The notes beneath the pieces were generated by a model. That model was given only the letters and a program-made list of their open reading frames with translations. It had not been told where the DNA came from and did no database searches. This document shows, piece after piece, positions 22,481-54,852 of a DNA stretch of 64,000 bases; the first letter of the stretch is position 1; each line of letters begins with the position of its first letter. A program made the translations under genes and the position numbers. Source of the DNA: Isoetes taiwanensis (lineage: Eukaryota; Streptophyta; Lycopodiopsida; Isoetales; Isoetaceae); contig JAJEKV010000031.1 in NCBI GenBank assembly GCA_021234155.1, positions 12,758,928 through 12,822,927 on the forward strand, in the 5' to 3' direction.

Positions 22481-22512
22481 CATTAGAGTTTTTTTGAGGT
22501 CAAATAAGGGCC
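22481..22512 (+). repeat. terminal inverted repeat, element 1 end A
   Basis: CATTAGAG, seven T, GAGGTCAAATAAGGGCC. Just inside it, ACGTCAAAAAGCTCGCGGCC is identical to end A of element 2. Confidence 0.85.
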
Positions 22513-22889
22513 CTTACTCGATGCCACGTCAAAAAGCTCGCGGCCAATGGGGAGCCGAGCTTGTACAGAACTTTTTTACCGAGCCTTGGTTTCGCCTTTC
22601 CAGGTGTCAACTGCACGTAGCTTCGGTAATATCCGTGCCTCTAGCTTCGGGTGTCAGATTACACACGTGGCAATTATAACCGTTAGCTCCCGCCCTCAAT
22701 TCCCGCTCAGATGTTTTCCACAACAGAGTTTGCGCCAAGATCGATTGTTCGCCGCCAAGGGAGCTTTCGTTCACTGAACCGCCGGACCTGGCGCTTAAAG
22801 GGAGTTTCACCACGTAAAAACTTCGATCAAGGTAAAATCGCAGAGCCTTTCCTAGTATTTCGATTCCGCCCACATTCTCGATTTGAATT

Positions 22890-23990
22890 CGCGGACTAGA
22901 TGGCTATAAGCTCTATCACGTCGGAAATGAGTTTGAAAGCTTGCGGTGTCGAACGGGAGCTTTGTTACACTCCAACCCGCAATGCGAGGTGAATGGCGAG
23001 TCAAAAGATGCAGGAGAAATGATGTTTTCAAGACATTGGAAGGCTTTGGTGGTCGGATTTCGATCAGGCAAAGAGATATTTGTACAAGTAAGGCATGTAT
23101 ACACTCCAACAGATATGTAAAAAAAAAAAAAAATAAGCAAGTTTAATTTAACTTTCCCACGGTTAGAAGCAAATTGTGAGTATGTAATTCTATGCAATCC
23201 ATATTCAAATTAGTTCCGTTATTTATCCGGTTCATTCCTATTCTCTCGTGTTTGTGTATATCCGATGTGGAGAACACCGCCTCTCTTCACACCGATAAGC
23301 AGTGTTTTCCATTGCTTTCACCAAGATATGGGCTGCTTGTTGTTCAAGGTAGCACACCAAGACATGCTCGGAGAAAGGGGTATATGGTTCTCGAGGTATG
23401 AATACTCTCCACTAAGATCCAAGCTAACTGAAGCTTCCATTGCCCAACCGGTCCAATTTATACCGCAGTCTCGGATGCCACTTCTATTTTATTAGCACGA
23501 GTAAGTTGTCGCAGGAAATGTTCACGGCATTGAAGGAGAAGGAGGAGTCTCATGGGCATGTGAAGATAAATTTAGGAATTGATCCGTTCATTGCCATATT
23601 CAAGAGCCGACAATGTAAAGAAGACCTTGAAGATGTTTACAGCTCAAAATCATGGATAGTTTTTAGATAGTGTATTTTTGAAGGTTGGAGTGCTCGACTT
23701 CAACGATGGAGCTGAATGTAAATGAATGCGTGATAAGTCGAGACACGGTTCGTTCAGATATTGCATTCGAAGCAAACTCAGATATCACTTTTAAGTATAG
23801 GAGATGGCTTAAATGTCCGCGGAAGGAAGAAAGTACGCCCGATTCCTCGCCGAACAAGATGACAATGATGGCACTCATTCCGTTGTCATAGACTTGAACA
23901 TTCATAAGGATAATCACTGTTCAAAAGTCCGAGAGCGAGAGCGAGTGGTCTCTATTCGATGTTCGGCGGCAATTGAGTTTGAGATGTGAC
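22890..23990 (+). pseudogene. gene A of element 1, unknown protein
   Basis: The best frame runs over about 22890-23117. It reads LDGYKLYHVGNEFESL, then CEVNGESKDAGEMM, then HWKALVVGFRSGKEIFVQ, and is followed by GTAAGG, a plausible intron donor. Further pieces are readable at 23260-23400 (PRYGLLVVQGSTP), 23500-23660 (KINLGIDPFIAIFKSRQC) and 23815-23990 (ARFLAEQDDNDGTHSVVIDL), in changing frames. Element 2 has the same protein pieces at 53.7-54.45 kb with different breaks. Conservation of peptide blocks in two diverged copies suggests a real former gene with introns. I do not recognise the family. Confidence 0.5.
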
Positions 23991-24229
23991 TTAAACTTCT
24001 TCCATTTCATGATAGATGGCCGTAAGGTGGGAAAGTGCAGAGAAGAATGCTATAAATTGGGGTCATGCATGCCACCCAAAGTCATATCTCAGATATGAAT
24101 CTATCTAATATAAATATAAGTGATTGTTAACCGAGATCTATTGTATATTAATTGCAAAACATTTGCTTTCATTGGGATATAAGACTTAAAGTAGCCATGT
24201 TATGTACAACTCTGATCATGGATGTGTTT

Positions 24230-24925
24230 TCACACCGCACTTACGGCTAAATTGTGGCTCTCATAAAATATGGAAGGGTTATTTTTGCACCGTAGCCACC
24301 TGTGCTTAAAATGTGCATAGCATAAAAACGAAAGTAGTATATTCCGCACCGTGAGCCACGGTGCGGGTTATACATACAATAAGATATTGAAGGAAGAGCC
24401 AAGACCGTAGCCACCTGCGGCGGAAATGTGCAATGCGTAAAAAAATGGAATGGGTATTTTCAAGACCGTGAGCCTGCGGTGCGAAATTGTGAATAGAATA
24501 AATTATCGGGTCTTGTTTTCGACCGAGCCACCGGCGCGAATTTGTGCATAGCATAAATTAAGGAAGTGTTATTTTCGCATCGCTGTTGCACGCTCTTAGT
24601 CTCTCTTGCAAATCAAGCCGCTACAAAGGCCACATTCTAAGTGTCATAAATCGGTATTTGCCGCTCCACGAATGATAAATAGCGGTCAGATAAAGCATGG
24701 TGGCTGTGATGTGGCTACGATAGTGGCTACGGTGCGTAAAACATGCGGTCGGGCAATTTTGACTGCCCTATTTCAAGATCGCGGGCTACGGCAGGCGATT
24801 TTAAAACAAACAGTCGGCGGCAGTTTTTTGACCGCCCTATTTTCAAGATCGTCGGGTTTTACGGTGCTTAAAACAGATGTCGGGCAGTTTTTGGACCGCC
24901 CGATTTCACACCGCGGGCTACCGTA
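24230..24925. repeat. hairpin array, element 1 end A
   Basis: About eight degenerate copies of a short hairpin whose ideal form has stems TTTCGCACCGT and ACGGTGCGAAA around a GGCT loop. Spacers of TGCATAGCATAAATTAAGGA type are the reverse complement of those in element 2 at 47.2 and 53.4 kb. From 24690 on the units also carry CGGTCGGGCA and GACCGCCC phrases. Several copies are altered (AAGACCG in place of GCACCG). Confidence 0.75.
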
Positions 24926-24989
24926 ACATTTTTCGCCTAGGGGTTTATGGGATCGGGATGCATAATATTGCTTAATTGAATTTCTTCTC

Positions 24990-25459
24990 CTTGCTAAAAT
25001 CCGCCATGTCCATGGAAGGCGCTTAGCTCAAATCCCACAAAAAATGAGGCTTTTGACACCCGCTTTAATATTGATGAGGTCATTACTAGCCAATGGTGAC
25101 TTCTATTCCAATCACAGAGGGCGGCGCTTATTCCCATCACAAGCCGCCAGATGGACGTAGAGGAGGTTGTCCTTAGTAAGACTTCTGGGCAAACCCTTGG
25201 AAATGTCGCCCACACTATTAATAATAGTGTGGATCTAATATTTCAAAACCCGACCGCTTCCTAGTCGGGTCACCTTGCCGAGCGGCCGGTAAGGTTGTTG
25301 GGGAAGGAGTTTTCCGCGGACGCCACCGCCCGCCACAATATTCCAGCCTGGATGATTGTATTGTGGTAGCAAAGGACATAGCTCGATCCAACAGCCTACC
25401 GCCGCTCCCCACCCCCCGAGCGGAGACATTAGAGGAAGCCGCCGGGTCATAATGTCGCG
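24990..25459. other. coding-like region upstream of the H3-like frame
   Basis: GC-rich and partly open on the plus strand. A frame around 25150-25260 reads QMDVEEVVLSKTSGQTLGNV and TINNSVDLIFQNPTAS before a stop. It could be the upstream part of the same broken gene. No family recognised. Confidence 0.3.
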
Positions 25460-26311
25460 GTGGCCTGTGTTGATGTCATCCATGTCCCAAGACGGAGTCA
25501 CGGCCATTCCCAGTTCTTGTGTAATGAGCTGGATTACATGTTGAAACCACCGGGGGTTCTACACACCCGCCAGTGCTTTGGCTGCTTGACCGGGGCCATG
25601 GTGGCCCAATGGCTCATGAATCAGCTATCTCCTCGCCTCGGACGCTGGGACCACTATTGCATTCCCAAACGTTTGGCAGTGGTGGGGGTGAGGAAGAACT
25701 GCAGACTATGGAAGTGCAAAGATGACCAAAGATCACCTGGTCCAAAGATGATCGCCAGGATCGACGGGCCAAGAAGATCGCAAGATCACCGGTCCAAAGA
25801 AGATCGCCAGGATCACCGCCTCTAGCAAGATCATCATCAGGTGGACCAGCATGTTGATCCCGGGAATCCTAGTTCGAGTGGAACAGGTAATAGGAAGCCC
25901 CGGTGAAAGCTGAAATCCAAGCCGAAGAAATCCGAGCCGGCAAAGCCTCCTAGGCTTGTTCCTAGTTGGAGACAAGCTGAGAGAGATGCAGCCAAGAAGA
26001 CTGATAAGCTTGGTAATAAGCGGAAGCCTAAGGAAGGGGAGCCTAGTGTTAGATATGGTGGCCCTGAGAAGATAAAGGGTGCTCCTCCTGGCACTCAGGC
26101 TTTGAGGGAGATTAGGTACTGGCAGGCACACACCCAGCTTGCCTTCGCTAGAATGGTCAGGTTTGAGATGCAGGAAAGTATTGAGAGGAGGAAGGAATCA
26201 AGGAGGAAGAGGAGGGACAGAGCACCAGACTTCGTCCCGATGGTGGAGGAGGAGGCGAAAATGACTATTCCACATTCTGTGGGAAGGTCTATTTCACTTT
26301 TTGTTTGTTAA
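25460..26311 (+). pseudogene. histone H3-like frame with a long basic N-terminus
   Basis: One frame runs from 25460 to 26311 with only two stops (TAG at 25823, TGA near 25904). The C-terminal part has a lysine/arginine/proline-rich stretch (PKKSEPAKPPRLVPSW; KRKPKEGEP) and then APPGTQALREIRYWQ and TQLAFARMVRFEM. In histone H3 and CENH3 the N-helix region has PGT-ALREIR followed by T, L and PFxRLVRE, so this matches the H3 N-helix and first helix. The rest of the histone fold (helices 2 and 3) is absent. A charged ERRKESRRKRRDR tail replaces it. The N-terminal half (ELDYMLKPPGVLHTRQCFGC) is unknown. H3-like, truncated and probably not functional as a histone. Read as cargo of element 1. Confidence 0.6.
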
Positions 26312-26400
26312 AGATGAGCCGCCACTGATGAGTGTTTTATAAAATGACTATTCTATTTATTGGCATTCTTTGGGAAGGTCTATTTCAGACCGCCAAAGAC
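26255..26400. repeat. short duplication after the H3-like frame
   Basis: AAAATGACTATTC, then CATTCT, then GGGAAGGTCTATTTCA occurs at 26258 and again at 26341. The stop codon of the H3-like frame lies in the first copy, so its C-terminus may be duplicated or displaced. Confidence 0.65.
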
Positions 26401-26650
26401 TATTTTTTGAGGGGGGTCTATTTCTCGCCAAAGACCGTGACTCACGTGAGAAACAGACTATTCCACTCACTGCGAAGAGAATGCTGAACTGAATTTAGAA
26501 TCTATTTGTAAGGAAAATGGCCAAGAGCTTTCCAAATTGAAATGTGCGGTAAATAGATGGATCACATGTATCACTTATGGTTACATACTTATAACTCATA
26601 TAAGAGGCATAGCATCATATAAGAGGCATAGCATACATGAATGAAGAAGC

Positions 26651-26902
26651 TTATTCGCGATCGGGATCATCATGAAAAGGTAGTTGAGTGATGCGATTAA
26701 TCTCATAGACGCCACGCTCTGGAACCCTCCAAAGGTGGATAACAACACGATAAAACCCTCCGGAAGAACGATTTCGGCCCTCTGCTACTCCTTCCAGCCA
26801 GGGATCAAGGGGGATACCCCTCTGAGAACATCTATAAAGATCATTATATGTCATAGTGCAAGTAATGGAGTCCATATCTTCGGGACGAGGAGGCCGAGAC
26901 AT
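26651..26902 (-). CDS. small unknown protein, pair 1 member a
   Basis: 83 residues from the ATG at 26902 (MSRPPRPEDMDSITC) to the stop at 26651. I chose this start because the related ORF at 27066 begins at the matching place. Shared features with that ORF: DSITC near residue 11, a Cys near residue 24, IPLDPW against IPMEDW, a hydrophobic strand with W (VVIHLWRVPERGVYEI), and an acidic C-terminus. No family known to me, no signal peptide or membrane segment. Both copies stay open while diverging strongly, which argues for past selection on the protein. Confidence 0.5.
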   Translation of the reverse strand: MSRPPRPEDMDSITCTMTYNDLYRCSQRGIPLDPWLEGVAEGRNRSSGGFYRVVIHLWRVPERGVYEINRITQLPFHDDPDRE

Positions 26903-27065
26903 AGCAAATGGATGCCTTCTGCATTGAGTGGAACCGTACTTATATCGAACAAAATTATTGACATGCAATCGAAGAAAAGATTATTGGTTATACATACGAG
27001 CATAATGTACAAAATACACATGTATATAATGTAACGATATAGCGATATACATTCTGAGTATTGAT

Positions 27066-27314
27066 TTAGGGGGACTCTTCTGAGTCATTGTCACCAGGCA
27101 CCCCAATGATCTTTTCTATCATGTACATTTGATGCTCTCTATTCCATATTAGATAGATGATAACATCGAATGGATCAGGATAATAGCGAGGATTGAGAGC
27201 GGTAGTGGTCATCCAGTCTTCCATGGGTATTTCTCGCTCGCAACACTGCTTGAAATTTTCGTGATTCATCTTGCAGGTAATGGAATCACGTTCAGGACCA
27301 GAATGAGACCACAT
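27066..27314 (-). CDS. small unknown protein, pair 1 member b
   Basis: 82 residues from the ATG at 27314 (MWSHSGPERDSITC) to 27066. Homologous along its whole length to the 26651-26902 ORF (DSITC, IPMEDW, DVIIYLIWNREHQMYMIEKI, acidic end). The longer open frame upstream to 27476 is not shared and I leave it out. It is divergent from the plus-strand ORF at 27439, with 124 bp between them. AT-rich flanks with AAAATTATTG and TATACATAC phrases are also duplicated at 26950-27000. Confidence 0.5.
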   Translation of the reverse strand: MWSHSGPERDSITCKMNHENFKQCCEREIPMEDWMTTTALNPRYYPDPFDVIIYLIWNREHQMYMIEKIIGVPGDNDSEESP

Positions 27315-27438
27315 GGCTAGACGGAGGCCAATGTTGCTGCACTCGGCAATTTGATGTATATTTATACCCACCAAAATTATTGATGGTATATACATAGAAA
27401 TTATTGGATCGTATACATACCTGTATGGTACTCGTATA

Positions 27439-27729
27439 ATGGAACAGTTGAAGGACATGCTTTTCCATGGTTTCATGGCCTACTCTCTGGATCAGCATGT
27501 GCCTCTGGTCATTCCTACTAATGAGAAGAATAGGATTTATATCCTCATTGAACTTTACGACTTCCATTATAAATCTTTTGTGGATATTGGTAAGCTCCTA
27601 TTCCGTTCCCTTGACTTCAACATCCTGTGGTTACTGTCTAGATTCCCCACCTGGGATACAATTCCTTGGGATACACGTGACCTATGGCTACATAGCACAC
27701 AGCACATAATACGTACATATCACAGGTGA
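27439..27729 (+). CDS. unknown protein, pair 2 short member
   Basis: 96 residues. It matches the C-terminal half of the protein at 28621-29215. SLDQ aligns with the same word there, followed by LIELYDFHYKSFVDIGKLLF against LIRAYYNEYNGFVELGPLFF. Next come SRFPTWDT against TRYPIWWE and WDTRDLW against WDTRELW. Relative to the longer copy it lacks about 100 N-terminal residues. Function unknown. The WDTR(D/E)LW block looks like the family signature. Confidence 0.5.
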   Translation: MEQLKDMLFHGFMAYSLDQHVPLVIPTNEKNRIYILIELYDFHYKSFVDIGKLLFRSLDFNILWLLSRFPTWDTIPWDTRDLWLHSTQHIIRTYHR

Positions 27730-27904
27730 AGATACTCCACTGGACTGGTATAAAGATTTTCATAGAAATTAAGCAAGTGATTTCCGTGTAATTAAGTAAC
27801 ATCCTCATATTATCATGTATTATCTTGGCAATCTTACACTTTTAGTGTAATTGAATGATTTCTTCTACCATTTTCCTTGCATTTTTTCATGTGAATGTTT
27901 TATT

Positions 27905-28030
27905 TGTGGTCATATTCGGCACCGTGGCCACGGTGCGAAATTGCCTCAGTTACAAATTATTGAAGGGCCTATTTCGCACCGTGGCTACAGTGCGAAATAC
28001 TGTGGATCTAGTTTAGTTACGGGCCCATCT
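27905..28030. repeat. hairpin pair, second spacer type
   Basis: GCACCGTGGCCACGGTGCGA at 27920 and a close copy (GCACCGTGGCTACAGTGCGA) at 27978 flank a spacer with TTACAAATTATTGAAGGGCC. This spacer type recurs only at 29395-29700. Confidence 0.85.
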
Positions 28031-28139
28031 TTCGCCACCACCAAAGGGTATAATACTTCAGCATTATTGGTATTATTCTTCAACTTTCTTGGTATTATAC
28101 TTCAACAGTATTAGTATTATACTTCAACATTATTGGATT

Positions 28140-28615
28140 CGTAGCTATAAATTCTTTCACCTTGCTTTCACTTCTCACCTTTGTTCCATGTTTTCACATT
28201 GCTTTCACTTCTCGTGTTCTCACCTTGCTTTCACTTCTCACCTTGTGTTCCGTGTTCTTTGCTAATTGATCTTGATCCTTGCTTCTTGCTCCTTCATCTT
28301 CGTGCTACTTCATGCTACTTGGTCTTGTTCCTTGCTCTTGATCTTGCTACTTGATCTTGTTCCTTGCTTCCTTGCCCCATGATCTTCCTTGTTCCTTGCT
28401 TCTTGCTACTTGATCTTGATCCTTGTTCCTTGCTACTTCATCTTCCTGGTCCTTGCTATTTGGTCTTCCTTGTTCCTTGATCTTCTTGCTCCTTGCTTCT
28501 TGCTACTTGATCTTGATACTTGTTCCTTGCTACTTGGTCTTCTTCCTTGCTTCTTGCTCCTTGTTCCTTGCTCTGCTCCTTGTTCCTTGCTCCGTCGGTG
28601 ATCCTTGCTTGCTTG
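28140..28615 (+). repeat. pyrimidine-rich CTTGATC-type repeat
   Basis: Low-complexity tract of TTGCTACTTGATCTTGTTCC-like words directly upstream of the ATG at 28621. It may be a pyrimidine-rich leader or promoter of that ORF, or simple-sequence expansion. Open frames through it on both strands are artefacts. Confidence 0.8.
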
Positions 28616-28620
28616 TGCAA

Positions 28621-29215
28621 ATGATTGGACCCAATCCTCCCTGGGTTACTCCAGAAGGCTTGCAAGCATGCCCCAGGCATTCTGTGCGGCCTGAAACTGA
28701 TGAGCTATTTGACCATTTCTTGGAGTGGAGGTTGCACCACAGTCCCACCAAGGAGCTTGCAATGGAGTTGATCAACTTCATTCTGGAACGATTCGATTGT
28801 GGTCATGAACCACTGATGGAAATTAATCCATCTGAATGTTATAGGAGACTTGCAATGAGGGGAATTCTTGAACCCCCTCCTTATCTGGACGAGATGCTAC
28901 AGCAGTTCAGGCCTCTTCTTCGTGCTGGTTATTTAGCACTCTCTGGATCAATACATATCAGAGTTCATTCATGAAATTTCTAAGGGACAGATGTATGGCC
29001 TTATTAGGGCGTACTACAACGAGTACAACGGTTTTGTGGAGTTGGGTCCGCTCTTCTTCCGTGAGTATCATCATGTGGAATTACTTTTTCTAATGACTAG
29101 GTACCCCATATGGTGGGAAGAATCAGGCTGGGATACGCGTGAGCTCTGGTTTCCTAACCCAGATGCGTGGGTTACCCCTCATGAGGGGAAGGCAAAGGGG
29201 AAGGGAAGGGGTTAG
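28621..29215 (+). pseudogene. unknown protein, pair 2 long member, one frameshift
   Basis: Starts at the ATG at 28621 (MIGPNPPWVTPEGLQACP), just after the pyrimidine tract, not at the earlier in-frame ATG inside that tract. The first frame ends at 28974. Alignment with the 27439 ORF shows the true frame switches near 28940 in a CTCTCT run and then continues to the stop at 29215. About 197 residues in total. Helical N-terminal half (DELFDHFLEWRLHHSPTKEL), WDTRELW block near residue 170, and a Gly/Lys-rich tail (GKAKGKGRG). No known domain. A single slip in a dinucleotide run means the break is recent or a consensus error. Confidence 0.5.
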
Positions 29216-29394
29216 GAATATAGGGAAGGTTACTAGGGACATAACCGCCGTGGTCTCTAGTAACCTTTGCTATCTATCATAAATATTTCATTTGATACCG
29301 TGTTAATATGTTCTATAAATATTCTCTAATATGTTAATATGTTCTCTAATATGTTAATATTCTCTAGTTACTGGCCCATATTTCTTATTCTTGT

Positions 29395-29700
29395 GCGAAA
29401 TTGACTCAGGTACAAATTATTGAAGGGTTTATTTCAAGACCGTAGCTACCTGCATGTAAATCGACCGAAGTTACAAATTATTGAAGGGTTTACCGCACCG
29501 CGGGCTGGCAAATTAAATACGTGGATCCGGCTTTAGTTACAGCCCATATTTTGCACCGCCGCCACGGTGCGTAAATCGACTCGCCACAAATTATTGAAGG
29601 TTTATTTCGCACCGTGCTTAAATTGCTCGCCATAAATTAAATTGACTCGGTATAAATTATTGAAGGGCCTATTTTCAAGACCGCGTGGCTAATTTATGTG
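29395..29700. repeat. hairpin array, element 1 end B side
   Basis: About five units of CAAATTATTGAAGGG plus a degraded GCACCGTGGC hairpin. Several stems are replaced by AAGACCGTAGCTACCTGC-like or CACCGCCGCCACGG-like variants. Confidence 0.75.
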
Positions 29701-29749
29701 CAATACATGCATCCAATTTACTTACAATATAGCATTTCGCACACTGAGC

Positions 29750-32457
29750 ACTATCGAACTGATAAATAAACCAACTCTTTTACAGTAGAGACGTTATCAA
29801 GAGCTCTCAATACGGACATAACCTTTGCCTTGCCTACATCTCATTGATCTCCACTCCCTTGATCGCCAACAACCGCTGGACTTATACCAAGCCGCCCTCT
29901 TTTTTCCCCGCTGGGTTTTTTTGTCTAAACAACTTAGCAAGTGTTGATTCACTGCGTTTCGTGATTTCTTCACCCACTTGCACACGATCCTTCAGTAAAA
30001 CCATTGACACATCCGCTGCAAGGAATTCCCAACCGAACCTCTGTGTTGAGTGAAACGGAAGAATGCATTCTTTGCTTGCTTATGGGACTTCTCCATTCCC
30101 TGTGGTATTCCAAATTCCCGTGCTTCCATATTCCCTAACAAACCACACGCCATAATGCTAGAACAGAATATGGACATAGTGAGTCAAATTGGCCTCACCC
30201 CATGCCGTCAAGAAAGACTTAGTGAAGTTTGGGATCGCCTCCCCGAATTTGGCAACATCATTTTCCCCGCACTACCTTTTTTCTCGCATTTCCTTTACCA
30301 AGACAGAGAAATCCCCGCCATGCCTTGATTTTCTTCAGCGTGATCCGCCACTTATCATTTCGATCATCCTCACCGCAATAAGATCCTTGTAAGCTTCCCA
30401 AACACCGTGATAAGTTCTCTTTCGCGGGAGGCAAAACCTCTTAGCCTTTGGACCACCTATACCGGGTTTCAGGGGAACCTTGCCGGATACCTTTGGATCT
30501 TGAAGTATTTTGTAGTGCCCACCATGAAGTCCCACATTAGATAGCACCTTTTCAACTTCATGCATGGCAGCTTCCCTAGAGCTTTGGGGTGATTTATTCC
30601 AAGCAAACAGATACTCATGTAAACCATCTTGTCTATGATTCTCAAGAAAGCATGAAGGGTGCATATGTGTACTCTTCTTAACGGAATTGGCAATTGGCAT
30701 CAAGGTTGTGTCCTTCTCTTCTCTATTTGGTGGCTCATCCCCGACACAGCCTAATGTACTCTTGTCCAATCCAAATTGAATCTCTTCTTGCATAAAGACA
30801 AGAGGGACAAGCATGAGTAGTCTTACCAAGCACCATGCTTCATTCGTACATGCATTTTATTGTCTTCAAACTGCAAAGAAGATGCCATTCAACCTCATAC
30901 TCACCATATCCAGAACTCGCAAGTTTTTCTCCGATTCCGTGAGAGGCAATCATTGTGGGAATGGGTGTTTGATCAAAACCCATTTCAAGATAATCGTGAT
31001 TTTCCTCCGTACCTGAAATAAACCAACCCACCAAATGTGATCTTCGTGACCGGACGGAAAACTTACCATCTAGATTTGACTCTTCATTCCCCCGTGATTC
31101 AAAGCTCTGTTCATTAGACTCGCTTGAAACCCTCTCGCATTTCTCGCCTTTCACCAATTCCATTTCATCCAGCTTCAAAACAATTCTTAGTTTGCCAAAC
31201 AAGACTCTTCTACCTTCATATCATAAAATCGAACCAAAAGTGAAGCATTCTAGTTAAGTCTATCCAAAGAATTGTTATTTTCATTAAGGCGTAAAGTATC
31301 ACCAAACTTCAACTTCTTCTTACCTTTGGTATAGGATGCCACATGTATCCAAGCCGACATTGTTGGTCACCGATACATATCACCAAGAAGCTCTTTGCAC
31401 TTGTCTCTGTTTCTCGATGACCTACAAGTCCTCACACTAGTCATCCTTGGTAGTAGAATAGTTTTGGTAATGCCTTGTTGTTTAAGGCCATCCCGCAAGC
31501 ATCTGAACAAAGCAATATAAGCTTGCCTACTTATTCCGACATTGTCACACAGTTCTTGCACTGATTCTAAGGTTTGACTATTCCCCAACTCCCCGCAACA
31601 GCTTGATGTACTACAGCCTTTCCTAAGTTGAATGCTACCGTGAAGCTTTTAACATTCTCAATACATCATCTTTAGTAACTAATTTCTTTAATAAACCGCA
31701 ATATTAGCAGGTTTTTCTTATTTTCTTCTCGCAAGATTTGGATCAACAAGCTTTTTAATAGCCATGACCCTTTTTTTGAGCCTCCACCCCGTGGGCTAAT
31801 ATATTTATGGGCTTTAGGTTTTTGCCCTCTCCCCGATACCCGTGGAGTTCTTTTTCAAGCGTTTGACCCGCTTGTGAAGGGAATCATTTTCTTGCTAAAA
31901 CCCTCTTCATTCCTTGTCTGTAGTTGCATTCATCTCAGCCACCAATTTCTGATTTTCTACCTCTAATTCATTGAGCTTGCAAAGATTGTTGAGACAGAAA
32001 GTAGAAAGTAGTTAACATCTATTGGAATTGAATCCATTAACATCGATAAAACTTTGCAATTGAATCCATACAAGTGGTTATACATGGCACACAAATGTGG
32101 ATCAGTATTACCATTAACCAAATTATTACAGTAACCTAGTAACCCTTGCTGTCCCTTACAAGCAAATTCAATAAGACCGGATGCAGAGTGGAAGTTTGGA
32201 TGGGCTCGAGTGAAAGGATCACATGGATACAGTTGGCCTTTAGCCCAAAGGTCTATATTCATGGCTCCAGAAGCTCGCAATGCATCTTCATCTATTGGTT
32301 GCTTCCAAGTGAACTTATTCCTGTAAGGCAGGCATTCTTTTAGCACTTGCACTCTAAATTGACCTTCAGAATTAGTTTGATCCTGAAACAGAAGTATTAG
32401 AAGGAAGAACACTCAAAGGAATGCAATGACGACTCGGAAACCAAATACCTTTGCCAT
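29750..32457 (-). pseudogene. gene B of element 1, transposase-like candidate
   Basis: Reads inward from end B. Exon 1 includes ATGGCAAAG at 32457-32449. A 66-bp intron follows (32448-32383, GT...CAG). Exon 2 starts DQTNSEGQFRVQV and continues CLPYRNKFTW, QPIDEDALRASGAMNIDLW and GLIEFACKGQQGLLGYC, then a coiled-coil (LNELEVENQKL). Further blocks in shifting frames: AYIALFRCLRDGLKQQGI near 31500, YEVEWHLLCSLKTIKCMY plus CPSC near 30830-30900, VHICTLHAFLRIIDKMVY near 30640, HEVEKVLSNVGLHGGHYKIL and KVPLKPGIGGPKAKRF near 30450-30550. From memory, proteins with a WHL-x-LKTIKCMYG-like block and a downstream H-x-LH-x-LRI block are uncharacterised transposon-type proteins in plants and animals. I could not check this. 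Many stops and frameshifts: not functional here. Confidence 0.5.
32383..32448 (-). other. 66-bp intron of gene B
   Basis: GTATTTGG donor and CTTCTGTTTCAG acceptor on the minus strand. Element 2 has an intron of the same length at the same place (45820-45885). The flanking exons are better conserved as protein than the intron. Confidence 0.7.
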
Positions 32458-42120: not shown

Positions 42121-42139
42121 ATACCAGATGTGGCATTCC

Positions 42140-43810: not shown

Positions 43811-43811
43811 T

Positions 43812-45402: not shown

Positions 45403-45439
45403 TTGTAAGAGTATATTGGGGGGGCTGCCACGTAGGATC

Positions 45440-45540: not shown

Positions 45541-45810
45541 TCCTAACGACCACAAAATTTATGATTACATCTAAGATTTTCCTTTTCCCACCATCGAGCT
45601 TCAGCCATCGAGCTTCAGCGCCATCGAGCTTGCTATCGAGCTTGCTATCGAGCGCCAACAACCTTGCCATCACACCCAAGCATTGTTTGAATTCGAATTA
45701 TGGCGGATTCTTACCAGCAAATAGAGCGAAAATTTTCAATTTCACTCTGTTTGGGCAAGAATCTTCCTAATTCTAAGCTCCGCTCCGGTTCTCGATCTTT
45801 TGCAACGTCA

Positions 45811-46468
45811 ATGGCAAAGGTATTTGGTTTCCGAGTTGTCATTGCATTCCTTTGAGTGTTCTTGGTCCTAATACTTCTGTTTCAGGATCAAACTAATTCC
45901 AAGGGTCAATTTAGAGTGCAAGTGCCAAAAGGATGCCTGCCTTACAGGAATAAGTTCACTTGGAAGCAACCAATAGATGAAGATGCATTGCGAGCTTCTA
46001 AGGCCATGAATATAGACCTCTGGGCTAAAGGCCAACTGTATCCTTGTGATCCTTTCACTCGAGCCCATCCAAACTTCCACTCTACATCCGGTCTTATTGA
46101 ATTTGCTTGTAAGGGACAGCAAGGGTTACTAGGTTACTGTAATAATTTGGTTAATGGTAATACTGATCCACATTTGCGTGCTATGTATAACCACTTGTAT
46201 GGATTCAATTGCAAAGTTTTATCAGATGTTAATCAGCTTTAACAGGCGAACTACTTGCTGTCTCAACAATGCTGCAAGCTCAATGAATTGGAGGCAGAAA
46301 ATAAAAAATTGGCGACGGATGAAATCACTGCAGCAATAAGAGGGTTGCACAAGAAAATGATTCCCTCCACAAGCGAGTCAAACGAATGAAAACAACTCCA
46401 CTGGGGTTCAGGAAAAGGGCAAGAAACTTGACGCCCATAAATGGGATATGCTTCTGATAACCCCCAAG
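45811..46468 (+). pseudogene. gene B of element 2, truncated
   Basis: ATGGCAAAG (45811-45819), a 66-bp GT...CAG intron (45820-45885), then exon 2 from DQTNSKGQFRVQV. Exon 2 matches gene B of element 1 through QPIDEDALRASKAMNIDLW and CNNLVNGNTDPHLRAMYNHL. A TAA at about 46240 replaces a probable CAA (Gln). After it the frame continues into a coiled-coil (QANYLLSQQCCKLNELEAEN). Similarity to element 1 stops at about 46468, where the minus-strand ORF begins. The C-terminal two thirds of gene B are missing, so this copy cannot be autonomous. Confidence 0.6.
45820..45885 (+). other. 66-bp intron of gene B, element 2
   Basis: GTATTTGG...CTGTTTCAG; same position and length as in element 1. Confidence 0.7.
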
Positions 46469-47000
46469 TAGACTGTTTCTTCTTAGAGACCTCCTCTTCC
46501 AATACCTCCTCATTCTCCTCGTTTTCCAGTAGGAGCTTCTTTTCTGCAGGATCTATTTGCTCCTCGGCTGGTAAGGCTAGACATTGTATCTGAGAAACCT
46601 CCACACTTGAAGAAGAACCGGCATCTTGGTTTGACTTACTGTAAATCATGTATGTACTAAGCATAATATCTATGCTGTAAAAACTTTCTTTGCCTTTTTC
46701 CCTGCACAGTTCTGCAGGTAGTCTCCTCAAAAACCTCCTAACTCGGTCTTGATCAGCCTTCAGAAATATCTTAATTAAAGCTTGCATGCTCAGTAAAGGC
46801 AAATCAATCACATAATATGGTTTCAGGTCAGGTCCAGCTCTAGCCATGAAGCTATGAAGAATGCCCCCATATGCATTGGTAGACTTGTTACACTCTGCCA
46901 TAACGTCTACTGTCAGGCAAAAATTATTGTATATAGTAGTTGCATCAACTGGCTCCTCTATCTCCTCCTCAAACTCTTCTGGATGCTTCTGACGAAAATT
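46440..47000 (-). CDS. unknown protein fragment
   Basis: Open on the minus strand from about 47000 (NFRQKHPEEFEEEIEEPVD) through the Met at 46901 (MAECNKSTNAYGGILHSFMA) to about 46440. Includes LKPYYVIDLPLLSMQALIKI and an acidic stretch (LLLENEENEEVLEEEV). Past 46468 the frame (to 46263) is only the antisense of gene B and should be ignored. No membrane segment and no family I know. It could be a captured host exon or an element gene missing from element 1. Confidence 0.4.
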
Positions 47001-47149
47001 CTATTCTTTCTCTACTATATTATCATAACATGTGCTAAACAACTCCCATGCCTTATCTGATTTACTCTTTACCATTCTTGTTGAGCAACACCTTGATTTG
47101 TGATAGTTTGAAGGTGAGTGCCTTAGTAGCAGCTTGATATGCAAGAGTG

Positions 47150-47325
47150 ACTAACACCGTATCTACGGTGCGAAAATAACGTTTCCATATTTTTATGTTA
47201 TACACAATTTCGCACCGTGGCTACGGTGCGAAAATAACACTTCCATATTTTATGTTATACACATTTTCGCACCGTGGCTACAGTGCAAAAACAACACTTC
47301 CTTATTTTATAGCTGCCATACAAGA
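47150..47325. repeat. hairpin array, element 2 end B side
   Basis: Three well-preserved hairpins (stems TTTCGCACCGT and ACGGTGCGAAA, loop GGCT) with a period of about 60 bp. Spacers read AATAACACTTCCATATTTTA and TGTTATACAC. Confidence 0.9.
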
Positions 47326-47499
47326 AGAGGTTCAATTGAAGGGAGGAAGTTGATGAGGATGCTTTCAGGATTTTAGAGCAATGAACATTGATATTTAGGC
47401 AATGACAACTCTTTTTGTTTCATTAAATTTTGAATAGTGTTTTCTGAGTTCAAAAGTAGCCTCTCGTTAGTTATTGTCAAATTGACTATGAAAGAGTGG

Positions 47500-47885
<386 letters not shown>

Positions 47886-48920
47886 AAAAAAAAAAAAAAA
47901 AAAAACTAGCAAAAGGCACACCAGAAGGCTTAGGCAAGGTCAAATTGGTTAGGTTTTTAGACTTGGTAGGTACGAAGATAAATGTCTACTTCTTGGTTGA
48001 TCGAGTCATCAATGAAGACACACACAAGACATCCTGAAACAGAGGCAGACAAGAGTGAAAATAAAGATTAACATGGCAAGATATGTTTAATATGGGAATC
48101 CTCTAGAGAAAATCAAGGATCAAAACAAACAATAGTTAAAGTATTAACCTTAATCAGGGTTCAAGTACAAATAACATGTTAAAAAAAAAAAGTTACTAAT
48201 GCTAATAGACCTCAAAATTGATAAGGTAAATGAAGCTCCATAAACACCTAAAGCAACATTAGGCTTCCCTTTATAGAGTTGAAATTAAAGAGAGTAATTA
48301 GAACAAAATTGTTAATGCGAAATGCAAACAAGGAAAGGGGGATGGGCTAAGAACTTCATTGCAACCGAAGTCTAAACCATCTCAATGCCATATGTGGTGC
48401 ATACTTTCCTTTCATATGATTACAAATTGCAAATCACTTGAGACAATATTCAAAGAAGTTTGAGTCTATCAGTACAACGGTGCTAAGTAGGCAATAGTGA
48501 GTGAGTTCCAATTCTATAGGCACAAAGATTAATGAGTTCCAATTCCATAGGCACAAAGATTAAGGTGGCATTAAGCAAGCAAGGAACATAAAAATAAAAA
48601 TAAGAGGTAAGCAAGTTTAAAAAGAAAAGCTGAATAGAAACGCTCAAAGGTTTAGGTAAAAAGATAGGGATGACATTGAGCAAGGTCAAATCCATGGGCA
48701 GGAGTGGTAAAATGACATTTGGAAGGAGAGGAGCCATCATATGGAAGGAACTAAGGTTGTGATTAGCCCGGGGGGTGCACCTCTATATATGGACAGATGG
48801 CATCTACGTTCGAGGGGTCATAGAAAAACCCCTGTATACGGCTTTTTGGAGTGAGTAAAACCCATACCATACGGTTTTTCGAACTAACATACAATATAGA
48901 CCCTATCCGTAGATTTACGA
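47886..48920. other. no gene recognised in element 2 interior
   Basis: A-rich sequence; a duplicated GAGTTCCAATTC...CACAAAGATTAA phrase at 48500-48560. Nothing else. Confidence 0.35.
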
Positions 48921-48924
48921 TTGA

Positions 48925-49075
48925 TTGTGCCAAATTATATAATCCCTTTCCGACTTTGTACCTTTTGTGAAGACCCTTTGTGCCAAATTATATAATCCCT
49001 TTCTGACTTTTGTACCTTTTGTGTACCTTTTGTGCCAAATTATATAATCCCTTTCCGACTTTGTACCTTTTTCCG
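48925..49075. repeat. tandem repeat of TGCCAAATTATATAATCCCT
   Basis: Three imperfect units, at about 48928, 48981 and 49032, each followed by TTTC and GACTTT, TGTACCTTTT. Confidence 0.85.
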
Positions 49076-49261
49076 TCAAATGGATCAGCTCCCCAAATCG
49101 ATCATCTACGGAATCTCTCCTTCCCACCCGTATGAGCTCCCGACCGTATACCTACGACCAAGGCAATAAAAAAACCCTAAAAGTTCACTCAGTTGGTACG
49201 TACGTGACCATTGAGTGAACTCCCCTTGGTGATTAGTTTAGTCTAATTAAGTGAAACTTTG

Positions 49262-49345
49262 AAATATGGATATGGTTTCGGCAGAGCAAGGAGGTGGCAG
49301 AGCAAGGATATGGCTTGGGGCAGAGCAAGGATGTGGTTTGGGGCA
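49262..49345. repeat. short tandem repeat GGCAGAGCAAGGATATGG
   Basis: Three to four units of about 26 bp (TTTCGGCAGAGCAAGG, GGGGCAGAGCAAGGATGTGG). Confidence 0.75.
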
Positions 49346-49611
49346 AAAAAAGGAAATTGTTCCATGACGGTTAGCAATAAAAATAATGCAATTCCTCTCC
49401 ATTTGCGCTGCAATGCTTGTGTTTTCCTATTCATGCATTTGCTTATAAGCAAACAAAGAAATCAACATTCATCTTCATGCAGAAGCAAGCAGTTCAAAAC
49501 TGGGAGATGCAAAATCAGATAGTATTATACAATGTGAAGTTAAAATACAAATTTCTATTGCTCATACAAAATTAAATGCATAAGTTTAAAAATAGAAAAA
49601 AAACTAACAAA

Positions 49612-49973
49612 ATAATGCCTTTGGAGGCTGAGGAACAGGAGTACTCTCCTCTTTAATCTGTTGAACAGGCACAACATTAGGTACTGCAGAAGGGCTATTG
49701 GGCAGAGAAGCAGATTCTAGCTCATTATGAAGATCAGTAATCGTTTGCAGTAGCTCCTTCAGGGAGCATCACCAAGAAAAGAAGATGCGTCCATCCGCAA
49801 AACCCCATCCCCAAATAAAAAATGCTGCCATAAGGATAGCAATGCACAATCTAAGAATAGCCATCTTTGAAAATAAGCTTTTAAAACATGTAAGAGGCAT
49901 CTGCAAAACCATTTTACCATTTTAGCACTTCCTTGAATCTCCAACCGGTTGCTATCTGGACTTTCACACTGCA
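49612..49973 (-). pseudogene. two exon-like fragments of an unknown gene
   Basis: Minus strand. After a CAG at about 49974 an exon-like piece reads CESPDSNRLEIQGSAKM and ends ATG before GTAAAA. A possible intron ends in CCTGAAG. The second piece reads ELLQTITDLHNELESASLPN and continues to VQQIKEESTPVPQPPKALF and a stop at about 49612. Splice signals and reading fit a real 3' gene end. I do not know the gene. It may be captured cargo with introns kept. Confidence 0.4.
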
Positions 49974-49979
49974 AGGACG

Positions 49980-51150
49980 AAATAACTTAGGAGCATGCTT
50001 CAAATGCTAAAAGCTAGCAGTTCTTAGAATAGATTAGCAGCAATATATGTAGTCTATGATTTATAAGATGCTTTCGTAATCATCAAGAGCATTTGAAAGA
50101 GACAAATTGTTGAGGCAATATTTTAAGCGTTGTCTTTTTGGTTGTTCTCCTTTGCAAGAACATGAGATTATATTGAACATAGACAAGGCATTGTAAGGAA
50201 AAAATAAGATAAAGGATCAGCTTATGCTTCAAGTACAAAGAAGAAGGCAGAAGAAAACACAAGTGCATGTGATCAATCAGGTTCCAATCAACATAAAAGG
50301 AACACTTTGATGGGCTTATCATTCTAGAAGAAAAGACAAGCATTTTCATGTTTATATTGCTGTAAATCTCGACTCTAGTGCAAGAAACATGAGGATACAT
50401 TAAAGTCTATCCTTTGTACAAGATCCTATGAAAATTCCAATGCAAGAACACTTGTTTGAGCAGTGGTTTTAAATAGATCCATTGTTTCAATGCTTAAAAG
50501 CAGAAATCTGATTAGGCTCAGCGTGATGTATATTCAGGTTTTTGATAATTAATCTGAGCAAGGAAATGAAAAAAGCAACATGCTTAGATCCAGAATTATG
50601 CTAACATAGTTGCTCAGCTTTGAGTTATAAGTGAAACAAGATCAATGGACTCTTTTGTAAAGCAATGAAAACTAGTGCAAGACAAATTGTTGGTGCAACA
50701 AATTGTTGGTGCAGTAGACTTTTTGTTCAGATATGCTTATGACAAATACCTGTTCTATAGCTATTCAAATTAATATCTATAGCTATTCGGGTTTTTCTTA
50801 TGGTTATTAATCTGAACAAGGACCTGGAAAACGGATTGGTTCTGAATCCTTAACTAAGAGACAAAGTGCTCAGGTCCAGAGTTACTTATATATTCAGGTT
50901 GTGATTACCAACTGAACCAGAAAGCAAGACATGTTTTTACATGATACCAAAACACAAGAACATGTTTAAACAACACAAGAAAAGACAAATTGAAGAAAGT
51001 GTTACAGAAGAAAAAATCTTATATCAGAACAAGAAATCCTCTCTTAGCTACACTGTGCTGCCGGTTTAGGTATAGTAGCATGATTTATATAATGAATTTA
51101 CACCCTAAATGTCTACTCTTTCAAACAGCATAGACAAACTGAACAAGATC
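49980..51150. other. no gene recognised
   Basis: A-rich with scattered small repeats (AAATTGTTGGTGCA twice near 50690-50710; TATAGCTATTC twice near 50760-50790). This could be 3' flank of the EXORDIUM-like gene. Confidence 0.35.
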
Positions 51151-51159
51151 AGAATGAGA

Positions 51160-52163
51160 TCAAGCAAGAGCATTAGGACCTGAACATGCATTCGAAAATG
51201 GGTTCCAAATCCACTGAACAAGATATTTCCAGCCTTTGATACCATGCAGGTTGAAGCTAGCTTCATTTTGGTCAGTAAGGACATCACCCGGGTAGCCACC
51301 ACCTCCACCACTGCCATAGATTCCTTCACAAAGATCTGCTATTTCTGTAGGAGCAGTAGCATCCTGGCCAGCATATCAGACATTGATCAAAGGGTTGGAA
51401 GAAATTCCTGCAAGTTCATGGCCAAGCACACTGATCATCCCATCCACATCAATATTCTTATTGGGTGATTTCATAGGTTTGGTATTCATCACATAAAAAG
51501 AACTGAAAAAGGGTATGCACAGACTTCTGGGCATTGCTTTCCTGAATGACCTATCCAAGCATACGGCAAAGTGTATCTAACTATTAAAGGAAATGTATGA
51601 AATCCACACACTGCCTTGCAAAATTCTTGCATTTCTACATCCTCAAAAGTAAGTACTAGATACAAGCCTCCATGTGATTTTACTGGCACAGTATCACCGT
51701 TTTCTTTTAGTGCAGATGTTATCACTTCTTGAATACTTAACCTTGTCAGACTATGGCCATGTGAGTAGTAGGCTTCGTGCTCCTTGGCCATGATCACACA
51801 TTCTGTGATGTTCTGGCATGTTTGATTTGTGTATAGGCTTAGAGTCTGCCACCATTTTGCCAAAGGTGGTTCTTCCTCTGTTTTTGCAGATATAAAGTGC
51901 AGAAAATCCTTGACAATCTGCTTGTCAGAGGCCTTCCAGTTTCCATACCAGATTATATAGACGTACATTCTCGGCGTCAAAACAGGACCCATGTGGTATT
52001 TTAGATGCACAAACTCAGACGATCCTTCAAAGGCCTTTGATACACCAAACTGATGCTGGGGATCCTTATTCCCTTGGCCATGGCTGGAAAGCAATTCGCT
52101 TCTTGCACCATGGAGTCCGGAAGCAAAATAAATAAAAAATACATTCGAGACAAACAAGTGCAA
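51160..52163 (-). pseudogene. EXORDIUM / PHI-1-like protein copy
   Basis: About 334 codons on the minus strand, near the usual 300-340 length, and intronless like the family. The N-terminus (MHLFVSNVFFIYFASG) fits a signal peptide. It is followed by YHMGPVLT, YIIWYGNW, SHGHSLTRLSIQEVITSA, CKAVCGFHTF, YTLPYAWIGHSGKQCPEVC, and DVDGMISVLGHELAGISSNP. The last blocks are [15 protein letters not shown] and [17 protein letters not shown]. Family members are secreted cell-wall or apoplastic proteins linked to brassinosteroid-controlled growth. Breaks: a frameshift after CAYPFSVLF near 51510, and a TGA where the family has Trp (NAWYAG) near 51390. It therefore appears to be a recently dead or mis-assembled copy. 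It lies in the middle of element 2 and is best read as captured host cargo. Confidence 0.85.
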
Positions 52164-52169
52164 ATCACA

Positions 52170-52970
52170 GTTAACAAAAAAGGATTGCCGGACAGGCAGA
52201 GGTGCTAAAATACAGAGTCTTCAGGTTAGTTTGATGGCCATTCCAACGAAGGAAATCTCCCAAACCTATTTTCCTAGTGTTTTCTAATTTAAGGTTCAGC
52301 ATGTAGCTTCTCGCTACGAGAGAGCAGGGGACCGATGACGAGCTATGACAGAGCAGGGGATCGATGTCCTTTGCTATCCCCGTTCTCCAATTTTTAAGGA
52401 TTTTCAATAGCATGTTTGGATCAGAGCAAAGCGCAAAACTGACAAAGTTTGTCAATGTGGCTTGGCTTAACCTGTAAGCTGCTGAGCATTTTTTGGGGAT
52501 TTTCTGAAAGCTAAAGGCACAAAGAAGCGTCTGTTCAAAAACTACATCCTTTCAGATAAGCCCAATCCTTGCCATGCCCAATGAATCTGTCTAGGTTCGG
52601 TTCCTAGAGCACCATTACATATAATTTGCACTGGCCATAAGAAATAGGGCTACGACGAGATTAGCCGTAGCACGGCGGGAGAAAAAAAAGCAACAAAACT
52701 TAAACACAGCTTGAACAAGGGAGGAAGAACGCAACCACGACAGCAAAACTACAACAATGGAAACGATGTTCTACGACAATGGAAGCGCCTCCTCCCATCT
52801 CCGTTGCTATTTTCTGGGTCTTTTCTAATTTCCCTGGCCTTAGATTTGTGAAAGTAAAGATCTGATGGTCCAAGATAAGGCACATCAGATTTTGATGACA
52901 TGGAAATTGCACGTGGATAGGCTAGAATTTGAGGAAAGGCTGTAGGCCCGGTAGGGCTGGTGTGCTAAAA
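52170..52970. other. upstream flank of the EXORDIUM-like copy
   Basis: No frame of note. 52300-52380 has a short duplication (AGAGCAGGGGACCGATG against AGAGCAGGGGATCGATG). May contain the copied promoter. Confidence 0.35.
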
Positions 52971-52972
52971 AA

Positions 52973-53255
52973 AACCACAGTAGTTACAGTGCAAAATGCA
53001 TGTATCCGTTGGGCTGTGGACATGGCAAATTCGCACTGTAGCTACATCCTAAAAAAAAAAGTACGAAAAAAAGGGGCACAGTGGTTACAATGTGAAATGC
53101 ATGTATTCATTGGGCTGCGGACATGGCAAATTCGCACCGTAGCCACGCCCTAAGAAGAAAGAAATAAAATGTTGCATAATAGCCACAGTACGAAATGCAT
53201 GTAACCATTGATTATGGATATGGCAAATGCGCACTGTAACCACGCTCTTGAGGTT
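52973..53255. repeat. three ~70-bp inverted-repeat units
   Basis: Same unit as at 47500-47885 (AGTTACAGTGCAAAATGCAT ... TTCGCACTGTAGCTAC), near 52978, 53083 and 53170, separated by A-rich tracts. These bracket the EXORDIUM-like cargo with the 47.5-kb group. Confidence 0.85.
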
Positions 53256-53389
53256 GTTATTAAAATACAGATTTGAATCTACAACCTGTTCATTAGAAAC
53301 CTAGAGTCTCAGGCCTCAACCCTAGTGGGTTTTCCATGCTGGCATCGGGGTTGGGCCCTTAAGTGATCCCATCAAACCTCTAATGAATT

Positions 53390-53500
53390 TCGCACCGTAG
53401 CTACCATATTTTATGTTATACATAATTTCGCACCGTGCCTACGGTGAGAAAACAATACTTTCTTATTTTATGATAATCATATTTTCGCATCATAGTTACT
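53390..53500. repeat. hairpin array, element 2 end A side
   Basis: One good hairpin (TTTCGCACCGTGCCTACGGT) and two degraded ones with TTTTATGTTATACA spacers. Counterpart of 24230-24600 in element 1. Confidence 0.8.
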
Positions 53501-53639
53501 TTAAGTTTTTATGTTACACTGAAAGCAAACCTTTCCAATCAATATACAATAGACCTCCAATTAATCGTCACTTATATTTATATTACATAGATTCATATAT
53601 AGATGCAATATCTGAACCGAACCATGTCTTGACTTATCC

Positions 53640-54450
53640 TGCATTCAGTAGATTCAGCTCCATCATGAAGTCGAGCACTCCAACCTTCAAGAAATAGACT
53701 ATCTAAAAAACTATCCACCCGACCGGCCGGACTGTAAACATCTTGAATAAGGCAATGAGCGGATCAATTCCTAAATTTGTCTTCACATGCCCGCGAGAAA
53801 CCTCCCTTCTCCTTCAATGCAGTAAACATTTCCGTGACAACTTACTCCATGCTAGTAAGGCCAGTGGCATCCAGAGGCTGCGCATATAGCTTTCGGACAG
53901 AATTTGGGCAATGGAAGCTCAATAAGCTTGGATCTTTGTGGAGAGTATTCATACCTCGAGAACCATATACCCTTTTTTCGTGAGCTGCCTTTGGTATGCT
54001 ACCTTCGAACAACAAGGAGCCCATATCTTGGTGAAAGCAATGGAATACACTACTTATCGAGTGTGAAGAGCGTGTTCTCCACATCGGATATACACAAACT
54101 GAGAGAATAGGAATGAACTGGATAAATGGCTGAACTAATTTAGATATGGATTGCATAGAAGTACATACTTACAATTAAGCTTCTAACCATGGGAAAGTTC
54201 TTCGCTTGCTTATTTTTTTTTTGCCATATCATTTGGGCGTATACATGACTCATTTGTACAAATATCTCTTTGCCTGGCCGAAACCCGACTACCAAAGCCT
54301 TCAAGTAATGCGAAACATCACTTCTCTGCATCTTTTGATTCGCTATTCACCTCGCATTTCAGGTTGGAGTGTAACAAAGCTCCCGGTCGACACCACAAAG
54401 CTTTCAAAGTCGTTTTAATTTGTGATAGAGCTTATAGCCATCTAAAGTCC
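53640..54450 (-). pseudogene. gene A of element 2, degraded
   Basis: Minus strand. KALVVGFRPGKEIFVQMSHV near 54270 matches HWKALVVGFRSGKEIFVQ in element 1. Pieces corresponding to PRYGLLVV and the GIDPxIAxFK region follow in other frames, with stops. Relative to element 1 a stretch of about 310 bp (23775-24085) is absent. Unknown family. Confidence 0.45.
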
Positions 54451-54820
54451 ACGGAATTCAAATCGAATGTGGAAGGAATCAAAATACTAGGAAAGGCTCG
54501 GTGATTTTACCTTGATCGAAGCTTTTTTACGTGGTGAAACTCAATTTGGCCAGGTCGAAGCTATTCGAGCAAATCGAAGTTCCCTTAGGCGGGCAATCGA
54601 TCTTGGCGCAAACTTTGTTGAAGAAAACTTTGGCGGGAATTGAGGGGCAGGAACTAACGGTCATAATTGCTACGTGTGTAATCTGATACCCGAAGCTAGA
54701 GGCACGGATATTACCAAAGCTACGTGCATTGACATCTGAAATGGCGAAACCAAAGGCTCGGTAAAAAAACTCTGTACAAGCTCGGCTCCCCATTGGCCGC
54801 GAGCTTTTTGACGTGGCAAG

Positions 54821-54852
54821 GGCCCTTAATTGACCTCAAAAAAACTCTAATG
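54821..54852 (-). repeat. terminal inverted repeat, element 2 end A
   Basis: Reverse complement reads CATTAGAG, seven T, GAGGTCAATTAAGGGCC, followed inward by ACGTCAAAAAGCTCGCGGCC as in element 1. Confidence 0.85.

Follow-up and report, generated by a model that had tools for sequence, protein, structure and literature searches.

Two insertions, here called E1 and E2, lie in a stretch of 64,000 nucleotides from Isoetes taiwanensis (contig JAJEKV010000031.1, positions 12,758,928 to 12,822,927; hereafter the window). Both are very probably frame-broken copies of one abundant cut-and-paste transposon family that would form a new lineage of the CMCT clade, with a target-site duplication of 0 bp (at most 1 bp). 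A sequence-only reading of the window had suggested two insertions of one terminal inverted repeat (TIR) family with cargo, and this was borne out by the genome-wide pairing of the ends, by empty sites and by the transposase found at the B end in relatives. Paired ends and empty sites show that the family has been mobile. The ends and the two genes next to them, gene B (the putative transposase) and gene A (a conserved second gene), are the following; C930 is another copy of the family and P0001 a transposase sequence used as query.

22481..32921, minus strand: E1, whole element, 10,441 bp, end A left and end B right; degenerate 13-kb form; empty sites found
22481..22512, plus strand: E1 terminal inverted repeat, A end, starting CATTAGAG
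32890..32921, minus strand: E1 terminal inverted repeat, B end
22920..23819, plus strand (parts 22920-23210 and 23279-23819): E1 gene A remnants, frame-broken; tblastn with C930 frames
29973..32385, minus strand: E1 gene B, putative RAG1-like transposase pseudogene, frame-broken; tblastn of P0001, 56% (residues 131-781) and 54% (residues 10-265)
45371..54852, plus strand: E2, whole element, 9,482 bp, end B left and end A right; interior replaced; empty sites found
45371..45402, plus strand: E2 terminal inverted repeat, B end
54821..54852, minus strand: E2 terminal inverted repeat, A end
45883..46442, plus strand: E2 gene B fragment with no more than the N-terminus of the transposase (residues 10-198), 86% and 83% to P0001
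53611..54441, minus strand (first part 54178-54441, second 53611-54069): E2 gene A remnants, frame-broken

The four copies of the 32-bp end form two inward-facing pairs, and a check in the window found them at the positions claimed earlier. Both E1 ends are identical, and each E2 end differs from the E1 sequence by one base. As had also been claimed, both pairs have the end A and end B sequences in common and the second pair is inverted: 22481-23766 aligns with 54852-53603 (82% over 1318 columns), and 31803-32921 with 46442-45371 (86% over 1123 columns). The octamer CATTAGAG says little by itself, because it occurs 8 times in the window where 2.5 are expected; it is the identity over 32 bp, together with homology on a kilobase scale within each end, that makes the case for paired ends.

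The distribution of the ends was investigated in one genome, the I. taiwanensis assembly (1,658,258,908 bases in 1110 contigs), which is Nanopore-based (PMC8566536; this and the other papers cited are drawn on in excerpt), so that some frame breaks in repeats may be sequencing errors. A loose first look gave 534 candidates for the A end, 382 for the B end, 4451 for the transposase and 1302 for gene A, and only the best 40 to 150 of each class were scored. With an A-end query of 420 bp the best 40 candidates all matched; for the B end, where the best 40 were likewise scored, 40 long matches were kept and 21 short ones, belonging to an internal repeat, were excluded from pairing. Of the 40 scored A ends 18 have a B end from the scored 40 facing them at a distance of no more than 50 kb, and 17 such pairs lie within 30 kb, as against 0.014 expected by chance. 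No wrongly oriented pair occurs among the same scored ends. E1 is one of the 18 pairs, and the ends of E2 were absent from the scored set. The paired lengths are 2.8 kb, 10.4 kb (E1), eight of 12.9-13.3 kb, seven of 14.5-24.4 kb and one of 48 kb. This was the whole-assembly search that the earlier reading had asked for. The termini are CATTAG..CTAATG in 12 of 12 paired copies; the exceptions at ends are C957, with one end altered, and C1013, with one end not found.

The alternative that single-end fragments happen to face each other, or that the copies lie inside longer repeats, draws on the 22 of 40 A ends that have no partner among the 40 scored B ends (the best of 534 and 382 candidates). 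The number of pairs within 30 kb counters a chance facing of single ends, and the empty sites described below break exactly at CATTAG..CTAATG. We consider this alternative exceedingly improbable, and for E1 and E2 chance facing is rejected on both end pairing and empty sites.

The standard element is about 13 kb long, as given by the eight pairs at 12.87-13.33 kb, and not about 10 kb as had been supposed. The copies of 14-24 kb and the 48-kb copy may hold nested insertions, and C357 is a 2.77-kb deletion form. Compared with C930, E1 keeps four blocks at 84-91%, whereas E2 keeps both ends and one displaced block and has a stretch of about 6 kb not common to C930. E1 is thus a degenerate near-standard copy, and the interior is replaced only in E2. 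The suggestion that the two interiors differ entirely does not hold, since the interior of the 13-kb form is largely retained in E1 and only E2 has a long unshared stretch.

Empty sites were found through the joined flanks of E1 and E2, i.e. as paralogous sites in older repeats. In all three E1 copies read (L040-L042) the junction is GAAT|TATT with no base lost or gained, and in both E2 copies read (L037, L039) the junction length is unchanged at CTCC|CCAA; a third E2 locus (L038) is the window itself and was not counted. Read base by base, the insertion of E1 and E2 added exactly CATTAG..CTAATG. The target sites are varied (GAAT|TATT, CTCC|CCAA, ATTG|CAGA). Of 11 further joined flanks, which were compared with the extracted loci (L numbers), only those of C357 had relatives across the junction, and against L015 there is no gap. 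For C1025 there are 40 empty sites in the genome, four of which were read. Flank matches were counted in 22 usable pairs, after two of 24 (the altered end of C957 and the end not found in C1013) had been dropped; two of the 22 are from the divergent family, C931 and, by end pattern only, C842. One base matched in 9 pairs (5.7 expected), two bases in 2 pairs (1.5 expected; C1068b and E2), three in none, four in one (0.1 expected) and five to seven in none. From 2 bp upwards the flank matches come close to the number expected by chance, and there is no regular duplication of 2 bp or longer. We conclude that the target site is not duplicated or, at most in occasional cases, duplicated by 1 bp.

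Two further observations concern the flanks. Those of E2 (45181-45370 and 54853-54940) belong to an older repeat that by eye is LINE-like (long interspersed nuclear element), with at least 39 further genomic matches. Both flanks of E1 recur (98% and 93%) about 11 kb apart at C1074:4403048-4414151, and this locus is probably a duplicate of the site with E1 in it.

C930 has an open frame of 797 amino acids near end B. A single-sequence search with the C930-type transposase gave no significant relative in Pfam, PDB or IMG/VR, transposase searches of IMG/VR and of plasmids found no relative, and a codon-position analysis along C930 gave only scattered signal. The best 57 of the transposase candidates were scored, and a second query revealed stop-free frames at 37-43% identity in C1036, C1045, C931, C1033 and C941; the C931 protein (L055) and the C930 type have an identity of about 40%. 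The ratio of nonsynonymous to synonymous substitution (dN/dS) was 0.11-0.16 in 6 of 10 gene B pairs, the other pairs being saturated, and gene B is under selection in the relatives.

The conservation of the protein, about 860 amino acids long, was studied in an alignment of 20 whole proteins (A1) and one of 17 catalytic regions (A3). D394, D499, C520, C523, H568 and H573 (L056 numbering) are near-invariant and are followed by HX4H (735-740) and E760; the motifs are a D in KLDEMEL, a D in DLKT, CxxC, HxCTLH, HX4H and an E in GMEKSHKQAK. The distance from the last H to the E is 20 residues, the same as in the RAG1 sequence, and in the comparison of A3 with PDB HX4H and E are in register with RAG1. 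We infer that these residues are catalytic or zinc-binding. When the A3 profile was compared with 177,635 PDB sequences, RAG1 chains occupied ranks 1-10 (E 0.15-0.33), the sole other match being at 1.2, and hhalign of A3 against the RAG1 piece gave a probability of 89%, as against 0.6% for the same piece reversed. Among the Pfam families RAG1 matches the largest number of A3 members (6 of 17, with 0.0076 as the best E) and also 3 of 20 A1 members (best E 0.0051), in all cases below its cut-off. Over the whole genome the RAG1 model gave 22 weak matches (best E 0.43), of which 8 are at family places where about 0.08 would be expected (305 listed rows x 20 kb): three at gene B places (C942, C1078:7189080, C1026) and five at most 5 kb from, and convergent with, gene A places (C963, C1051, C1078:16144973, C379, C907). 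The other 14 lie away from the gene A and gene B places among the matches listed, i.e. the best candidates. Judged by register, rank and recurrence rather than by a significant E-value, the gene B protein appears to be a RAG1/CMC-type transposase.

The connection between this protein and the ends is apparent in the divergent relatives, in which, at about 40% identity, the frames are open, the second gene is convergent and the ends are still CATTAGA(G). CATTAGA(G) stands upstream of 8 of 8 divergent transposase frames, although CATTAG is also present elsewhere in several of these stretches. In six (L084-L087, L090, L091) it lies exactly at the border of BLAST homology between copies; L088 and L089 have the motif alone, with no partner alignment. 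A 26-bp family-specific end pattern, CATTAGAGTTTWTTTGGGATGTCAAC, occurs at 25 places (reversed control 0) and located the second end of C931, giving an element of 9,779 bp, as well as a pair in C842. The transposase is thus tied to CATTAG ends.

A conventional plant element of CACTA/EnSpm type whose ends have mutated would have to be reconciled with these data. Such elements have CACTA ends, a 3-bp duplication and a Transposase_21 enzyme, and they commonly contain subterminal palindromes and captured pieces of genes. CA..TG termini and palindrome arrays are found here too, and the C2C and H(3-4)H motifs also occur in EnSpm (PMC12730594). However, the ends are CATTAG and not CACTA, in the relatives as well, and neither the empty sites nor the 22 flank pairs contain a 3-bp duplication. 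Transposase_21 is not among the Pfam matches of P0001 (E<=10) or of the 17 catalytic regions (E<=1), which counts against a CACTA/EnSpm origin; for the 20 A1 members, 25 of 38 Pfam families were listed. Genome-wide, Transposase_21 has 167 matches and, among the matches listed, none by eye inside an element named here. We therefore regard this explanation as quite improbable.

Gene A was read in four long frames, the best 150 of its candidates having been scored, and many of the scored matches lie in open frames of about 290 amino acids. In the C931 element a frame convergent to the transposase matches the first gene A frame of C930 at 45% identity, and genes A and B are convergent in C931, C1036 and C1033. 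dN/dS was 0.24 and 0.18 in two of six pairs, the rest being saturated; gene A is under selection in the relatives. The tested frames fit no family among Pfam and PDB profiles and have no kelch or PHD match. A match of one gene A to TnsD (E=0.029) was taken as chance. By eye gene A has the look of a BAH-type chromatin reader, for which the Pfam and PDB profile searches gave no match. The complete two-gene element is seen only in the relatives, because the 13-kb copies examined are frame-broken. Gene A may encode an accessory transposition protein.

The convergent genes raise the question of a Transib/RAG-like transposon proper, i.e. a Transib branch in plants whose partner gene is of RAG2 type. 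The ends of Transib/RAGL elements carry a CACWATG-type heptamer, which is lacking at the ends here. In favour of this explanation RAG1 is the most recurrent family in the searches, and the two-gene layout is that described for animal RAGL (PMC7204232). The matches to the RAG1 model reach a best Pfam E of 0.0051 and a best PDB E of 0.15, none over the cut-off. On the other side, the 5-bp duplications of Transib/RAGL (PMC7204232) contrast with 0-1 bp here and with 0 of 22 site pairs sharing five bases, and gene A gave no kelch or PHD match in Pfam. This origin seems rather unlikely to us.

Several observations weigh against a new CMCT-clade lineage that inserts without duplication. As regards the sites, in the comparison of C357 with L013 (74% identity) a gap of 3 bp lies three bases away from the junction; the four C1025 empty copies read are all one T shorter in the T run at the junction, and the extra T of the filled site reflects either duplication of 1 bp or an error in the homopolymer; the slight one-base excess (9 of 22) has p 0.07-0.09, and 9 of 20 gave p 0.05; and the C1084 pair, with ends near 3951028 (estimated) and 3964469, shares the 4 bp GCTT/GCTT. 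As regards the enzyme, RAG1 ranks fourth to seventh when the whole-protein A1 profile is compared with PDB, behind three matches in the N-terminal coil region; a coiled-coil family matches 3 of 20 A1 members, the same number as RAG1; zf-Tnp_2 matches two members per set (best E 0.0087 in A1 and 0.0014 in A3, the latter better than RAG1); and 0 of 22 RAG1-model matches exceed the curated cut-off, with 0.15 as the best PDB E. Finally, the 13-kb copies examined have broken frames except for the 797-residue C930 frame.

The remaining features of the two elements are as follows.

24218..24950: E1 degenerate palindrome (hairpin) array, A side
25016..25567, plus strand: E1 copy of element open reading frame (ORF) o199, 43% to C930
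25826..26257, plus strand: E1 copy of element ORF o220 (formerly "H3-like frame"; not histone)
26660..27341, minus strand: E1 paralogous ORF pair, o148 (26660-26893) and o121 (27069-27341)
27439..29128, plus strand: E1 paralogous ORF pair, o200 (27439-27663) and o217 (28669-29128)
27911..27998: E1 palindromes of TTTCGCACCGTGGCTACGGTGCGAAA type, spacing 57 bp
46629..46988, minus strand: E2 copy of element ORF o156, 73%
47155..47310: E2 palindrome array
47492..47902: E2 second repeat array, related to 52967-53248
51489..52220, minus strand: E2 cargo, EXORDIUM/Phi_1-type gene fragment, presumably of host origin, PF04674 E=5.7e-49

The ORF pairs noted earlier in E1 are real paralogous pairs of element ORFs: C930 has the pairs o217/o200 and o121/o148 as well as o199, o220, o137 and o156, and the ten frames of the 13-kb form that were tested have no Pfam match beyond chance. 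The frame once called H3-like is also an element ORF; Pfam Histone matches its C930 counterpart only at the chance level (E=0.06), and histone H3 cargo is not supported. A virus or Polinton was rejected given these ten frames and a transposase without relative in IMG/VR or plasmids. The EXORDIUM-like copy in E2 was confirmed (PF04674 Phi_1), and C931 carries a histone-deacetylase fragment (L095:517-912, plus strand, Hist_deacetyl E=2.4e-26), i.e. gene pieces have been captured in two copies. Palindromes of TTTCGCACCGTGGCTACGGTGCGAAA type, often 57 bp apart, number 6-19 per copy in nine copies of 12.9-14.5 kb, 3 in E1, 4 in E2 and 0 in C357, as against at most 0.1 per copy in mononucleotide shuffles; the window has 8 matches at 5 places, and 100 dinucleotide shuffles gave 0.00.

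Outside the elements the window contains 19-bp tandem arrays of AACATGCCACCTAGGCTCC type at 17508-18500, 18879-19058 and 59257-60074, the 59-kb array and the 18.9-kb copies being inverted relative to the 17.5-kb array. A repeat segment, retroelement-like by eye, is present at 38396-40539, 62015-64000 and 3008-5094, twice direct (84% over 1.27 kb) and once inverted (pieces at 65-94%).

With regard to mechanism, we picture an element with 32-bp inverted repeats starting CATTAGAG, the transposase gene reading inward from end B and gene A inward from end A, with palindrome arrays between them; some copies also hold additional ORFs or fragments of other genes. The transposase would cut at CATTAG, and both ends would attack target phosphates directly opposite each other (a 0-bp stagger), so that nothing would be duplicated. 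Gene A could assist by DNA binding, targeting or regulation, the palindrome arrays may act like the subterminal repeats of CACTA elements, and E1 and E2 would be mobile only with enzyme from other copies. One may ask whether this amounts to a plant superfamily of two-gene elements with 0-bp stagger, in which a RAG1-related enzyme, closer to RAG1 than plant CACTA transposases are, either lost staggered strand transfer or was without it from the start, and in which the RAG-type plan of a transposase and a convergent conserved partner arose in parallel. In our view this is evenly balanced.

The stagger is a stable trait of most transposon superfamilies, so that duplication-free insertion by a RAG1/CMC-type enzyme would be unusual; it would also offer a naturally occurring set of enzymes in which to test the geometry of strand transfer. 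Such elements, here with hundreds to thousands of candidate places, would escape annotation methods that rely on a duplication. The pieces of other genes in two copies imply that the family may bear on lycophyte genome evolution. RAG1-like transposases have been reported in animals, and in fungi under the names Transib and ESTA (PMC12730594, PMC7204232); if the present reading is true, a large land-plant lineage with open, selected genes would extend the range over which the V(D)J recombinase fold is known. No plant RAG1-like or CATTAG-ended element is named among the transposon and RAG1 papers listed, a coverage mostly at the level of title and abstract with Repbase outside its scope, and for this reason we call the family no more than apparently undescribed.

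Of the known systems the CMCT clade (EnSpm/Mirage/Chapaev/Transib/RAG1) is the natural frame of comparison, being characterized by D, D, C(2)C, H(3-4)H and E, by CA..TG termini and by duplications of 2-5 bp (PMC12730594). The present elements are alike in the order of the residues (D, D, C(2)C, H(4)H, E), 5'-CA..TG-3' termini, TIRs and extra genes, and they are unlike in a duplication of 0 (at most 1) bp in the empty sites and 22 site pairs, in ends starting CATTAGAG and in a gene A without known family. With CACTA/EnSpm they have palindromic internal repeats, host-gene capture and CA..TG in common, but not the CACTA ends, the 3-bp duplication or Transposase_21. In animal RAGL/Transib, too, the TIRs enclose a gene for a RAG1-like transposase and another gene convergent to it; the differences are the 5-bp duplications and a RAG2L with kelch and PHD (PMC7204232). 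Spy, of the PHIS superfamily, is a TIR element that also inserts without target-site duplication (here one site possibly has 1 bp), but it targets AAATTT, as opposed to the varied sites seen here, and has a PIF/Harbinger-related enzyme (PMC4482050, in the part cited) instead of a RAG1-like one; no Harbinger or other DDE catalytic family is among the Pfam matches of P0001 or the A3 members, the nearest being zf-Tnp_2. Given the residue order and termini of the CMCT clade, the different duplication and the differences from RAGL and Spy, we file the family as a new CMC/RAG1-type lineage and not as Transib or EnSpm.

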